From positions 62,001-126,000 of the IMG/VR virus record IMGVR_UViG_3300023184_000026: 64,000 bases of DNA; one strand, written 5' to 3'. The notes beneath the pieces are model-generated. The model was not told where the DNA came from and did not search any database. It worked only from the letters and a program-made list of their open reading frames with translations. The position numbers and the translations under genes were made by a program. Of the stretch, positions 24,401 to 36,218 are shown one piece after another. The DNA comes from a virus. The stretch's first letter is position 1. Each line of letters begins with the position of its first letter.

Positions 24401-24502
24401 GTTGTGTAGCTCAGAGGTAGACCACTGACGGGATATGATGGTAAAAGACACCGAAAAAGTTCCCTATAAGCAGATGCCGATGGTTCGAATCCATCCATAA
24501 CA
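24401..24502 (+). ncRNA. tRNA-like RNA with an enlarged central domain
   Basis: The 5' GTTGTG pairs with CATAAC next to a normal T-arm (GATGG TTCGAAT CCATC), and a D-arm-like TAGCTCAGAGGTAGA follows the acceptor strand. Between them, instead of a 17-base anticodon arm, lie about 60 bases with GGGA/TCCC and GGT/ACC pairings. No CCA is encoded. It may be an interrupted or decayed tRNA, or a tRNA-like RNA with another role. Confidence 0.5.
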
Positions 24503-24513
24503 AATAATTTTAT

Positions 24514-24591
24514 GGGCGTGTGACGTAACTGGATAACCGTGTTTCATTCAAAATGAAAATTCTGTGGGTTCGAGTCCCATCATGCCCACCA
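24514..24591 (+). tRNA. tRNA with CAA (Leu) anticodon but short variable loop
   Basis: Acceptor GGGCGTG/CATGCCC, stem TTTCA/TGAAA with loop TTCAAAA, T-arm GTGGG/CCCAT, CCA encoded. The variable region is short, although bacterial tRNA-Leu normally has a long arm. A normal tRNA-Leu(CAA) exists at 36227. Confidence 0.75.
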
Positions 24592-24596
24592 ATTTT

Positions 24597-24712
24597 GATA
24601 GTGTATGTGTTTTCGTCTCTAAAATCTTACGGCACATGGAAGACGTGTAACGGGTTCAAAGTCCGACCACTTTGCATTGAGTAGAGTGAGTAAGCCAACC
24701 ATATACATTATC
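24597..24712 (+). ncRNA. Structured RNA closed by a 13-bp stem
   Basis: GATAGTGTATGTG pairs with CATATACATTATC (G-U pairs included). Inside, CGTCT/AGACG and CTTAC/GTAAG are interleaved, so they could form a pseudoknot, and a T-arm-like CGGGTTCAAAGTCCG lies between. It has no usable anticodon arm. Function unknown. Confidence 0.5.
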
Positions 24713-24723
24713 AAAATATTTTT

Positions 24724-24797
24724 GGACGATTGGTGAAAAAGTATCACTGCTGACTGAAGATCAATAATTCCGGTTGCAAGATCCGGGTCGTCCACCA
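24724..24797 (+). tRNA. tRNA-Phe(GAA), atypical
   Basis: Acceptor GGACGAT/GTCGTCC, anticodon loop CTGAAGA with one mismatch in the stem, CCA encoded. The T-loop (TTGCAAGAT) is two bases too long and the D-loop lacks the usual GG, so folding is non-standard. Confidence 0.7.
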
Positions 24798-24798
24798 T

Positions 24799-25128
24799 TT
24801 ATTTAAAATCAAATTCTTTTTTATATTCTAACACTGATGTTATATATGGGACGCTACCATCATCCTCGAATTGTCTGTATGTAAAATCTATTATAAAGTT
24901 TCCAACTTGAACAACTGTGTGTGGTAGTTTGTAAACTATATGTTTAACATCTACGGTCTTTGCTTGTGGAAATCCATTATTATTTAAGAAATCTGCCAGT
25001 GAATCTGATATTTCACAACACATTCCTTTTGACCACGTTGGTGCATGAATAATATTATAATAATCCTCCCCATCGGACTGTAACCAAGAAGTGCAAAGTT
25101 CATTTAAAAGTATTTCTGTTAGTTTCAT
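24799..25128 (-). CDS. Possible cysteine-peptidase/transglutaminase-like protein with packaging-type N-terminus
   Basis: The 109-residue protein begins MKLTEILLNE|L, a short helix ending in L-x-E like the capsid-targeting peptides of T4 internal proteins. The rest has a GMCCEISDSLADFL helix, then HIVYKLPHTVVQVGNFIIDFTYRQF: an ordered Cys...His...Asp set like that of transglutaminase-fold or NlpC-like enzymes, seen also in unannotated phage proteins. The enzymatic call is tentative. It is a lone minus-strand gene inside the tRNA array, its stop two bases from tRNA-Phe. Confidence 0.6.
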   Translation of the reverse strand: MKLTEILLNELCTSWLQSDGEDYYNIIHAPTWSKGMCCEISDSLADFLNNNGFPQAKTVDVKHIVYKLPHTVVQVGNFIIDFTYRQFEDDGSVPYITSVLEYKKEFDFK

Positions 25129-25223
25129 AACATATACATATCCTAAATGTTATTTAATATCAAAAAGAAATATTTGAAAGTATCGGCGGCAATACATTTA
25201 AACTACCCGAAACACCATTTTAT

Positions 25224-25297
25224 TGAGATATATTGTAGTGGCAGCAAAAGAGTCTCTGAAACTCATAGCATTGGTTCGATTCCAATTATCTCATCCA
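25224..25297 (+). tRNA. tRNA-Gln(CUG)
   Basis: Acceptor TGAGATA/TATCTCA, loop CTCTGAA, T-arm ATTGG TTCGATT CCAAT, CCA encoded. Confidence 0.8.
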
Positions 25298-25304
25298 TTT
25301 TATT

Positions 25305-25455
25305 ATACAACAACTGCGGAGATAGTAATTCCAAAAAAGTTGTTACTGTATGAGTAGAAGATATCGTGAGTTAATTACTATGTCACGTGAAGCGAAAAAT
25401 ATAGGATAATATAAAGGTGAAGCCTCATCTTGAATGGGTTAAATTCCCAAAGGCA
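25305..25455 (+). ncRNA. Structured non-tRNA segment of the array
   Basis: At 25305-25351, ATAC/GTAT encloses AACAACT/AGTTGTT and AGTA/TACT, which are interleaved and could form a compact pseudoknot. The rest (to a TGGG TTAAATT CCCA hairpin near 25435) shows no protein gene. It fills a tRNA-sized gap and may be a small RNA or tRNA remnant. Confidence 0.35.
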
Positions 25456-34467: not shown

Positions 34468-34498
34468 TTGACAAATATGTATTATTGAGTAATATAAT
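34468..34498 (+). promoter_or_regulatory. Promoter-like sequence
   Basis: TTGACA (34468-34473), 19-base spacer, TATAAT (34493-34498), 14 bases before the ATG at 34512. Confidence 0.55.
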
Positions 34499-34511
34499 AA
34501 CAATATTAAAA

Positions 34512-34676
34512 ATGAGTGAACTAGGTCTATTAAGAATTCTTCCAAAAGAACAATTTACAGAATATAAAGGAAAATGTATACAGGTTCGTGACTTAATAAA
34601 GATACTTGAAAAACAAAATAAAAAAAATACTAATAATGGGCCTGCCCGGCGCAGGAAAAACAACACTGGCAACTGA
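34512..34676 (+). CDS. Short ORF overlapping the APS-kinase-like gene
   Basis: The ORF starts MSELGLLRILPKEQFTEYKG and is open for 54 codons, but its last 18 residues are a frame-shadow of the kinase P-loop. The first 36 residues look like a natural N-terminus for the kinase. The two frames meet in a run of eight A bases at about 34619-34626. It is either a separate small gene or the 5' part of the kinase, joined by +1 frameshifting or separated by an assembly indel. Confidence 0.45.
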   Translation: MSELGLLRILPKEQFTEYKGKCIQVRDLIKILEKQNKKNTNNGPARRRKNNTGN

Positions 34677-35043
34677 ATTAGCCAAGATGTTGAATGCAGT
34701 TCATTTTAACGCTGACGAAATTCGTAAAGAAATCAATAAAGATTTGACGTTTAGTATACAAGATAGAATAGAACAAGCACGTCGTATGAAAGTGTTATGT
34801 GATATAGTTGTTAGGTCTGGAAATTATGCTATAGCAGATTTTGTATGTCCAACAAAACAGGCACAAGATGTATTTATAACAGAAGATACATATGTTGTTT
34901 GGGTTGACAGAACAAAGGTTGGTAGATATGAAGACACCAACAAACTGTTTTATCCTCCAGAGAATTTTGATATGATAGTCAATGAATATGGATCTCCAAA
35001 ATTTTGGTCGCTATTGATTGTTGACGAACTGCAAGCACACTAA
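34606..35043 (+). CDS. APS-kinase-like P-loop kinase
   Basis: The open frame begins at TTG 34606; Walker A GLPGAGKTTLA follows within 12 residues. FNADEIRKEINKDL, QARRMKVLCDIVVRSG and YAIADFVCP match adenylylsulfate kinases and their phage relatives, which phosphorylate a hydroxyl group of a nucleotide or sugar. Protein length from TTG is 145 residues against about 170-200 for APS kinases, so the N-terminus may come from the overlapping frame at 34512. The true substrate is uncertain. Confidence 0.7.
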   Translation: MKNKIKKILIMGLPGAGKTTLATELAKMLNAVHFNADEIRKEINKDLTFSIQDRIEQARRMKVLCDIVVRSGNYAIADFVCPTKQAQDVFITEDTYVVWVDRTKVGRYEDTNKLFYPPENFDMIVNEYGSPKFWSLLIVDELQAH

Positions 35044-35096
35044 TTGATATATTATATCTTTTGGTCATATATATTATATATATTTCTATATAATAT

Positions 35097-35753
35097 ATGG
35101 CAAAAAAGAGCAAAGTTAAACCAACTGATATAATAAATAGTCCTTTGTTTGCTGGAGTGCCGCCAAAATTTGTAAAAAAAGCGGCTACTTTTTGTGAAGT
35201 AAAAGAGTATAGTGCTGGTTCATTTATAATAAATGAAGGTGAAAAAGGAGACTTTATGTTTATTATACTTGATGGTCAAGTGGATGTATTAAAAGGACCA
35301 AAGAAGATGAAATTAGCCACACTTGGCAAAGGTGTATTTTTGGGAGAAGGTGCATTGGTTAGTAGATCACCAAGAAATGCAAGTATTGTCGCAAAGAGTA
35401 GTGTTAAACTTGCTGTATTTGATCAAAATGGATTTGATAAATTATCTGTTATGCATCCATGTATTCCTGTAACAATGATGAATATACACAACGAAAGATG
35501 CAAAGATACAGTGCGTAAACTCAATATATTAAAATCAAAAGAATTTATATTGATGGCAGCAGTTGGATTGGTGTTGCTTGTAAAAAATTCACATAGTATA
35601 CTTCCAATGAATTTACATGATATTGCAGATCAAATTGCAAGCTATATTCCAGATCAAGTTATGGCATTGGGTGGCCCAGCAGCAGCAGCAATTGGATTGA
35701 AATTAAAACAAATGGAAATGGGTGATATAGTTTCTAAATTAGACAAGATTTGA
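35097..35753 (+). CDS. Cyclic-nucleotide-binding domain protein with a membrane helix
   Basis: The 218-residue protein has a cNMP-binding fold at residues 15-130: FAGVPPKFVKKAA, EYSAGSFIINEGEKGDFMFI, LDGQVDVL and the phosphate-binding cassette FLGEGALVSRSPRNASIV, with Glu and Arg that contact the cyclic phosphate and ribose. A hydrophobic helix (FILMAAVGLVLLV) follows and then a Pro/Ala-rich C-terminus. No DNA-binding or kinase domain is present. It could read the product of the CHASE2 cyclase encoded at 19430, which is inference. Confidence 0.8.
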   Translation: MAKKSKVKPTDIINSPLFAGVPPKFVKKAATFCEVKEYSAGSFIINEGEKGDFMFIILDGQVDVLKGPKKMKLATLGKGVFLGEGALVSRSPRNASIVAKSSVKLAVFDQNGFDKLSVMHPCIPVTMMNIHNERCKDTVRKLNILKSKEFILMAAVGLVLLVKNSHSILPMNLHDIADQIASYIPDQVMALGGPAAAAIGLKLKQMEMGDIVSKLDKI

Positions 35754-35763
35754 TAGTTTGTAG

Positions 35764-35791
35764 TTGACCAGAACAATATAATGTGTATAGT
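35764..35791 (+). promoter_or_regulatory. Promoter for a tRNA block
   Basis: TTGACC (35764-35769), 16-base spacer containing CAATATAAT, TATAGT (35786-35791), 20 bases before tRNA-Leu(UAG). Confidence 0.6.
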
Positions 35792-35810
35792 TATGTTTGT
35801 TCTTTGATAC

Positions 35811-35901
35811 GGCTGTGTGGCGGAATTGGCTATACGCACTTCGCTTAGAACGAAGCACCTATAAAAAAGGTATATGGGTTCGACTCCCTTCGCAGCCACC
35901 A
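35811..35901 (+). tRNA. tRNA-Leu(UAG)
   Basis: Acceptor GGCTGTG/CGCAGCC, stem CTTCG/CGAAG with loop CTTAGAA, long variable arm, CCA encoded. Confidence 0.92.
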
Positions 35902-36142
35902 ATTTAAATACTTTTTTCTGGTAGTAAATTCTTTGAGGTTCGTCGCCTCATTTACTGGCTGATATACAATGACAAAATCGTGGTTATTATTGATTGAAAT
36001 GAAACGACTTCCGACACGCGGGTCTGATATAATAGTTAGATTAGAGTCCTTGAGGTAATAACTTGATTGTATATCGAAGGAGAGCATAACTGCGGTGCCA
36101 TAACTTGGGATGACCAACCCAACGCGCAGTCAGAAAAAAAAT
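35902..36142. other. Non-coding or weakly coding stretch
   Basis: A long hairpin AGTAAAT...TGAGG-TTCGTCG-CCTCA...TTTACT lies at about 35923-35956. ACTGCG/CGCAGT (36089-36131) encloses a TTGGG/CCCAA hairpin. A minus-strand ORF (36117-35845) runs into the antisense of tRNA-Leu and was not accepted; its first 60 residues are nevertheless protein-like. Confidence 0.35.
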
Positions 36143-36218
36143 AAGTGCTGACATTGGGGATGACTCACCTGCTGATGAACCAATGGCGCGGAGACGCAGG
36201 TCACTACCGCCAGCACTT
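36143..36218 (+). ncRNA. tRNA-sized pseudoknot-capable RNA
   Basis: AAGTGCTG pairs with CAGCACTT (8 bp, perfect). Inside, CATTGG (36152) with CCAATG (36180) and ACCTGC (36167) with GCAGGT (36196) are interleaved. CTGATGA occurs at 36172 but the rest of a hammerhead core is missing. No anticodon or CCA. Confidence 0.5.

Follow-up and report, generated by a model that had tools for sequence, protein, structure and literature searches.

Several unrelated structured RNAs lie between the tRNA genes of a large phage tRNA array and may include RNA antitoxins or decoys

The usual explanations for large arrays of transfer RNA (tRNA) genes in phages are codon supply and resistance to the cleavage of tRNAs. 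The tRNA cluster of phage T4 also makes the stable RNAs C and D, which are small non-tRNA RNAs of unknown function. The subject of this analysis is a set of tRNA-sized and larger non-tRNA units within a tRNA array of the virus record IMGVR_UViG_3300023184_000026. From this record of 297 kilobases (kb), a window of 64,000 nucleotides (nt) was analyzed, corresponding to positions 62001-126000, and all coordinates below refer to the window. In addition to its tRNA genes, the array carries several unrelated conserved structured RNAs, and elsewhere several unrelated phage groups hold a type of RNA antitoxin without its toxin.

The most similar arrangement described so far is that of cyanophage S-CREM1, whose tRNA region contains abiF, manA and wcaG RNAs, for which neither an antitoxin role nor a processing model was proposed (PMC9964418). 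This was the only paper found in a literature search of partial coverage for non-tRNA units in phage tRNA arrays. As in the window, non-tRNA RNAs lie there among the tRNA genes of a large phage, but they belong to known Rfam families, whereas the families of the window are new. The abiF RNA is a proven antitoxin of AbiF (Abi_2), a HEPN toxin that it neutralizes in trans by direct binding (PMC12373285). It resembles the window units in being a small structured RNA with the same spacing before a tRNA in phage arrays, while the window units have other folds and cores and no abiF score. The type III antitoxins fold as H-type pseudoknots, and a pseudo-ToxI has allowed a phage to evade the ToxIN system (PMC5086642), a precedent for antitoxin mimicry by a phage RNA. 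The H-type pseudoknot of these antitoxins (ToxI, CptI and AntiQ) and of the pseudo-ToxI of phage TE has a probable counterpart in families B and E of the window, and the same fold is predicted for units K and N. In contrast, the type III antitoxins usually form tandem repeats, while the window units are single and have no Rfam match. Finally, the Racr anti-CRISPRs are likewise small RNAs of phages and use mimicry to disarm a defence of the host, although they mimic CRISPR repeats and tRNA arrays are not mentioned in the paper describing them (PMC10651486).

The array and the five families of units in which compensatory changes were found are the following:

23822..38280, plus strand throughout: tRNA array holding the units, with 30 tRNA genes called by ARAGORN, all 30 with encoded CCA, and short, AU-rich linkers between array genes
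24399..24504, plus strand: family A, a tRNA-like RNA with an acceptor stem of about 9 base pairs (bp), a D-arm and a T-arm, an extended arm with the core CTATGATGGYAAANGACRCCGNAAAAG, and no CCA
24593..24716, plus strand: family B, with a closing stem, a probable H-type pseudoknot (CGTC/GACG and TTAC/GTAA), a T-loop-like hairpin and a variable hairpin
25700..25784, plus strand: family D, with a closing stem, a hairpin with a TTRAAGT loop and a 3' hairpin
26128..26224, plus strand: family E, copy 1, with a closing stem, a probable H-type pseudoknot (GTTG/CAAC and CGGT/ACCG) and an inner hairpin
27079..27175, plus strand: family E, copy 2, 97% identical to copy 1
26994..27072, plus strand: family H, a nested three-helix RNA with a closing stem, an internal helix and a hairpin

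The units at 24401, 24597, 26129, 27080, 26994, 30539 and 36143 are not called by ARAGORN. The units lie on the tRNA strand, often 1-6 nt after the preceding gene and 4-9 nt before the next, and units A to E, M and N all end 4-9 nt before a tRNA. To place these units in related phages, the protein encoded at 19430-21205, 3 kb upstream of the array, was used as bait and yielded 77 related loci; a search with DNA patterns of A, B, E and H added more, so that 231 sequences were compared in total, and homologues were located by blastn and nhmmer. Homologues of nearly all units fall inside other tRNA arrays, often at different positions. The units thus shift position between related phages and have no constant neighbouring gene. 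Of the 2357 nearby tRNAs in the related loci, none is encoded on the opposite strand, although overlap between loci makes this count redundant. The distance to the next gene has a median of 9 nt on the downstream side and 6 nt on the upstream side. Families A to J have homologues in many loci, and those of K, M, N and the units near 34 kb were found in near-identical relatives only. A sequence-only reading of this DNA had listed nine such elements as placed like tRNA genes. Within the array this was correct, most of them being flush between tRNA genes, but the element at 30539 lies 86 nt upstream of a tRNA. The tight and regular spacing on both sides would also suit structural spacers or processing insulators, which would aid the folding and cutting of the tRNA transcript and have no function once excised. 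This explanation appears quite improbable because the near-invariant cores and the several unrelated, individually conserved families exceed the needs of a spacer.

Covariation was measured as the number of double-change cells relative to shuffled and slid controls. Since the structures were read from the same alignments, it is these controls, not the raw counts, that carry weight. As a phylogeny-aware null we used an R-scape-like test of our own, which has low power for E, B, G and J. Covariance models were built for families A, H and E (R1, R2 and R3, respectively).

For family A, 25 distinct homologues were aligned. Paired letters occupy 98% of cells, with 101 double-change cells compared to 25.6 in shuffled and at most 19 in slid controls, and in the R-scape-like null the top five of about 6000 column pairs are all perfect pairs that lie in the closing stem and in the stem beneath the extended arm. 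The acceptor, D- and T-arms and the elbow letters are kept as in tRNA, which bears out the T-arm that had been proposed at 24401. In contrast to tRNA, family A is 106 nt long in the window with an acceptor of about 9 bp, an extended arm with a near-invariant core replaces the anticodon arm, a 7-nt anticodon loop with U33 is absent from all 25 sequences, and the 3' CCA is missing in at least 24 of them. Under sensitive Rfam filters, 24400-24503 is recognized as a tRNA at 38.5 bits (RF00005, gathering score 29) and is the sole unit matched. With model R1, members of the family score above 100 bits and ordinary tRNAs at most 54. Annotation pipelines would report such an RNA as an odd or pseudo tRNA. 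In transfer-messenger RNA (tmRNA) the anticodon arm is likewise replaced by another structure, but family A has no Rfam tmRNA score and no tag reading frame; the tmRNA match in the window is a separate gene only, at 45795-46185. Family A was found in many uncultured phage contigs, some of which were reached through its own core alone. None was found in cultured or GenBank phages, where one of the searches gave only ordinary tRNAs near 50 bits, and as for a cellular counterpart, the GTDB genomes hold no exact match to the core.

Two other interpretations of family A were rejected. An intron-bearing tRNA is contradicted by the near-invariant arm core and by the lack of any register that yields U33 and a 7-nt loop. 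A short reading frame (ATG ATG GTA ...) was discarded because the changes within it form a compensatory U-A to C-G pair. It could also be that family A is a tRNA mimic and not an RNA antitoxin in the strict sense, and the same might apply to other units that have T-loop-like hairpins. Such a mimic would occupy a host tRNA-binding factor, such as a nuclease that targets tRNA, a modification enzyme or a defence protein that senses tRNA. The conserved arms and elbow, the missing CCA and U33 and an Rfam tRNA score above gathering are consistent with mimicry. However, anticodon-loop nucleases need the anticodon loop that family A is without, and B, D, E and H are not tRNA-shaped; this explanation is unlikely. 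The tRNA decoys suggested by the sequence-only reading are possible mainly for family A, which keeps the elbow and lacks CCA and U33.

Some tRNA genes with insertions were observed in the related loci. At L116:2568-2698 (minus strand), and also in L108, L109, L115, L120 and L122, a tRNA-Asn(GTT) carries a 51-nt insertion in the anticodon loop that bears a T-arm-like hairpin, and an uninterrupted, otherwise near-identical tRNA-Asn allele is present at L107:57-131. A similar insertion occurs in a tRNA-Gln at L006:6033-6158. These insertions look like tiny tRNA introns, and the window phage encodes RNA ligases.

The other four families have folds unlike that of tRNA. In family B (9 homologues), 99% of cells are paired, with 10 double-change cells compared to 2.5 in shuffles, and the pseudoknot has one covarying pair in one stem while its second stem is invariant. 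In family E (10 homologues), 98.1% of cells are paired, with 10 double-change cells compared to 3.2; one stem of its pseudoknot contains a single compensatory change and the other stem is invariant. On the basis of these alignments, the presence of an H-type pseudoknot in both B and E is supported. Seven pattern matches for a cellular counterpart of family E all scored at most 16.4 bits with model R3 and were attributed to chance. In family H (15 homologues), 100% of cells are paired, with 27 double-change cells compared to 8.7, and the best pair has E=0.02 in the R-scape-like null. A pseudoknot at 26994 was ruled out because the nested helices pair throughout. For family D the alignment has 5 rows, in which both sides have changed in 8 pairs compared to 1.8 in shuffles, mostly owing to one distant homologue; a third short helix proposed for this family was 0% paired.

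The units are several unrelated RNA families, not the single family that the sequence-only reading had proposed. Another of its proposals, a new RNA class, is supported for several classes instead of one, since compensatory changes occur in no fewer than five families (A, B, D, E and H) that are without an Rfam model of their own. Covariation among homologues, which that reading had named as a check, was found for 24401, 24597, 26129/27080 and 26994. Its suggestion of decaying tRNAs can be dismissed in the case of A, B, D, E and H, where the helices stay paired as their letters change and the loop cores are near-invariant.

Evidence on what such units might do comes from the abiF RNA (RF03085, cut-off 37 bits) in the tRNA arrays of other phages. 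An Rfam scan of arrays carrying family A revealed a single abiF RNA, flanked by two tRNA-Lys genes, in the uncultured L106, at 40.8 bits, and a match just below the cut-off, at 36.1 bits, in the uncultured L118. Cultured phages were searched by BLAST with the abiF core and then with the covariance model. In S-SZBM1, S-CREM1, Bromden, DyoEdafos and Estes the RNA is flanked by tRNAs, and in Lolly9 and S-SRM01 a tRNA follows it directly. Matches over the cut-off ranged from 38.4 to 55.7 bits in phages that include cyanophages and mycobacteriophages, and Arthrobacter phage Mimi has a sub-threshold match of 33.0 bits between tRNAs. A BLAST match in Bacillus phage P59 was not confirmed by the covariance model. 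In eight phages the 3' end of the abiF RNA lies 3-8 nt before a tRNA. A search for a gene of the AbiF toxin (Abi_2) found none in 13 complete phage records and none in 16 metagenomic ones, the latter being mostly fragments.

The abiF RNA occupies the same kind of array slot as most window units, with the same geometry (3-8 and 4-9 nt before a tRNA), which suggests that some window units too may silence host defences as antitoxins or decoys. Comparison of the loci establishes the placement of the units, their conservation, their changes of position and the compensatory helices of A, B, D, E and H. The reading that we prefer, at a little short of an even chance, is that the array is a mixed one of tRNAs and other RNAs, in which the units are cassettes encoding small structured RNAs, and that the likeliest role of several of them is that of orphan RNA antitoxins or decoys. 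An abiF-like motif in unit J of near relatives, the H-type pseudoknot fold of type III antitoxins and the precedent of the pseudo-ToxI also speak for it. The units would be co-transcribed with the tRNAs, the RNase P cut at the following tRNA would free their 3' ends, and trimming would occur in the AU-rich linkers. Several would then act in trans, binding and silencing a host RNA-binding toxin or nuclease of an AbiF-like HEPN or type III-like kind, and family A would be a tRNA-shaped version presenting a fixed motif in the place of the anticodon arm. Expression and processing of orphan RNA antitoxins or decoys from tRNA arrays is likely in the case of abiF and plausible in that of B, D, E and H, but unproven for the window. 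More tentatively, phage tRNA arrays in general may be depots of such RNAs, with A, B, D, E and H countering host toxins not yet described and being freed by tRNA processing. If this were true generally, the unexplained gaps in phage tRNA arrays would be a place to seek RNA counter-defence and, thereby, undiscovered RNA-guarded toxins.

Several observations weigh against an antitoxin role. None of the window units has a match among known antitoxin RNAs, and abiF in particular gave no match in the array up to E=10, nor in G000. Near relatives hold an abiF-like motif in unit J (described below) that scores only 24.9 bits against the cut-off of 37, and the window copy is without the motif. No toxin gene was recognized near the units among the array proteins scanned, which are not every open reading frame (ORF). 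The units are single, whereas type III antitoxins are usually tandem repeats, and they are known here as sequences whose transcription is inferred. In LittleE, Thibault, Aeromonas phage T7-Ah and Salicola phage CGphi29, the abiF RNA lies outside tRNA arrays, so the tRNA slot is common but not obligatory. Moreover, the manA and wcaG RNAs lie in the S-CREM1 array, and an antitoxin role therefore need not apply to all RNAs of an array. As these two RNAs are thought to be regulatory, they also favour a different explanation, in which the units are regulatory RNAs of the phage, with translation or the mRNA of phage or host as their target, and the array serves only for their expression. The conserved loop cores would fit such a function as well, but with no constant neighbour gene and with positions that vary between phages it seems rather improbable.

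The remaining units, of which G, I and J, like family D, were missed by the sequence-only reading, are as follows:

25303..25456, plus strand: unit C (25305 in that reading), conserved and near-invariant among homologues, with no perfect closing stem at its ends
26308..26465, plus strand: unit F, about 96-99% conserved, with too little variation for covariation
26470..26672, plus strand: unit G, about 200 nt, conserved, with the closing stem TTGAATAG/CTATTCAA
27601..27686, plus strand: unit I, conserved between tRNAs in relatives
28396..28600, plus strand: unit J, conserved
30539..30588, plus strand: unit K, with CCAGCGT/ACGCTGG around interleaved GGACA/TGTCC and TGACAG/CTGTCA
34213..34291, plus strand: unit M, intergenic, 8 nt before tRNA-Met, with one near-identical homologue only
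36143..36218, plus strand: unit N, with AAGTGCTG/CAGCACTT around interleaved CATTGG/CCAATG and ACCTGC/GCAGGT, 8 nt before tRNA-Leu

Unit G has no significant covariation among its homologues. Unit K follows an ORF directly, precedes a terminator-like hairpin and is not flush with the tRNA downstream; its homologues are near-identical only, and unit N has one identical homologue. Units were compared with dinucleotide shuffles, the measure being a perfect closing stem around two interleaved helices. Units B, E, H, K and N exceed the shuffles (p from 0.043 to below 0.004), while no excess on this measure was seen for A, C, F, G, I or M. For K and N, the closing stem with its pseudoknot was reached in 0 of 300 shuffles each, and on the whole plus strand of the window only three structures of this kind were found compared to 0.73 expected, K and N ranking first. 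The closing-stem pseudoknots of K and N are thus predicted features well above chance in shuffle tests.

For the nine proposed elements the outcome is as follows. Closing stems are present at 24401, 24597, 26129, 27080, 26994, 30539 and 36143, whereas 25305 has no perfect one at its ends. Interleaved helices are supported at 26129/27080 and 24597 (by a covarying pair in one stem) and at 30539 and 36143 (by shuffles), and they fell away at 24401 and 26994. On the shuffle measure, A, C and F did not exceed shuffled sequences, but B, E, H, K and N did. Altogether seven of the nine stand above chance, namely A, B, both copies of E and H by covariation and K and N by shuffles; 25305 and 26308, which vary little among homologues, are candidates only. 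Of the four units added here, only 25700-25784 is supported by covariation, beside 26470-26672, 27601-27686 and 28396-28600. That the units are decaying tRNAs or chance folds is hardly credible. Arrays do hold odd, weakly predicted tRNAs, and C, F, G, I and M so far lack covariation support, but the compensatory changes and invariant cores already refute this for A, B, D, E and H, and the shuffle tests support K and N. Three tRNA-like genes in the window were missed by ARAGORN: a Phe(GAA)-like one at 24723-24797, scoring 32.1 bits with Rfam, and Lys(CTT)-like and Ile(GAT)-like ones with encoded CCA at 25622-25697 and 27518-27597, recognized by eye.

At gathering score and with default filters, Rfam gave no match for any reported unit. 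It therefore does not explain the units listed earlier, except that 24401 appears as a weak tRNA with sensitive filters. HDV-like (hepatitis delta virus-like) ribozymes have been reported beside phage tRNAs, and some units could be self-cleaving ribozymes that trim tRNA ends. Their interleaved helices would be in keeping with this, as would two matches in the surroundings of the arrays. An HDV-like candidate at 23378-23452, 370 nt upstream of the first array tRNA, has a perfect 7-bp P1 (GTTCTGC/GCAGAAC) but scores 33.4 bits against a gathering score of 44, and a Pistol ribozyme above the Rfam cut-off, at 36.9 bits, lies in the tRNA region of a related phage (L095:3551-3610). However, none of units A to N matches any Rfam ribozyme family, even with permissive filters, and this explanation is very improbable.

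Two further conserved non-tRNA units occur in arrays with family A, at about 9068-8995 and 8250-8155 of L106 and at about 2050-1870 and 760-668 of L118, all on the minus strand. By eye, they contain compensating hairpins, for example CTGGT/ACCAG compared to CAGGT/ACCTG. Among the proteins, the bait at 19430-21205 is related to annotated adenylate/guanylate cyclases of Pelagibacter phage HTVC008M and of Melnitz phages, and a protein with a cyclic-nucleotide-binding domain is encoded within the tRNA region at 35097-35753. The window also encodes a phrog_262-type DNA polymerase, along with the RNA ligases and tmRNA mentioned above. A DarG-like macrodomain protein (PADLOC DarG, E=1.1e-7) is encoded on the minus strand at 42931-43431 and is possibly a protein antitoxin against a DarT-type defence.

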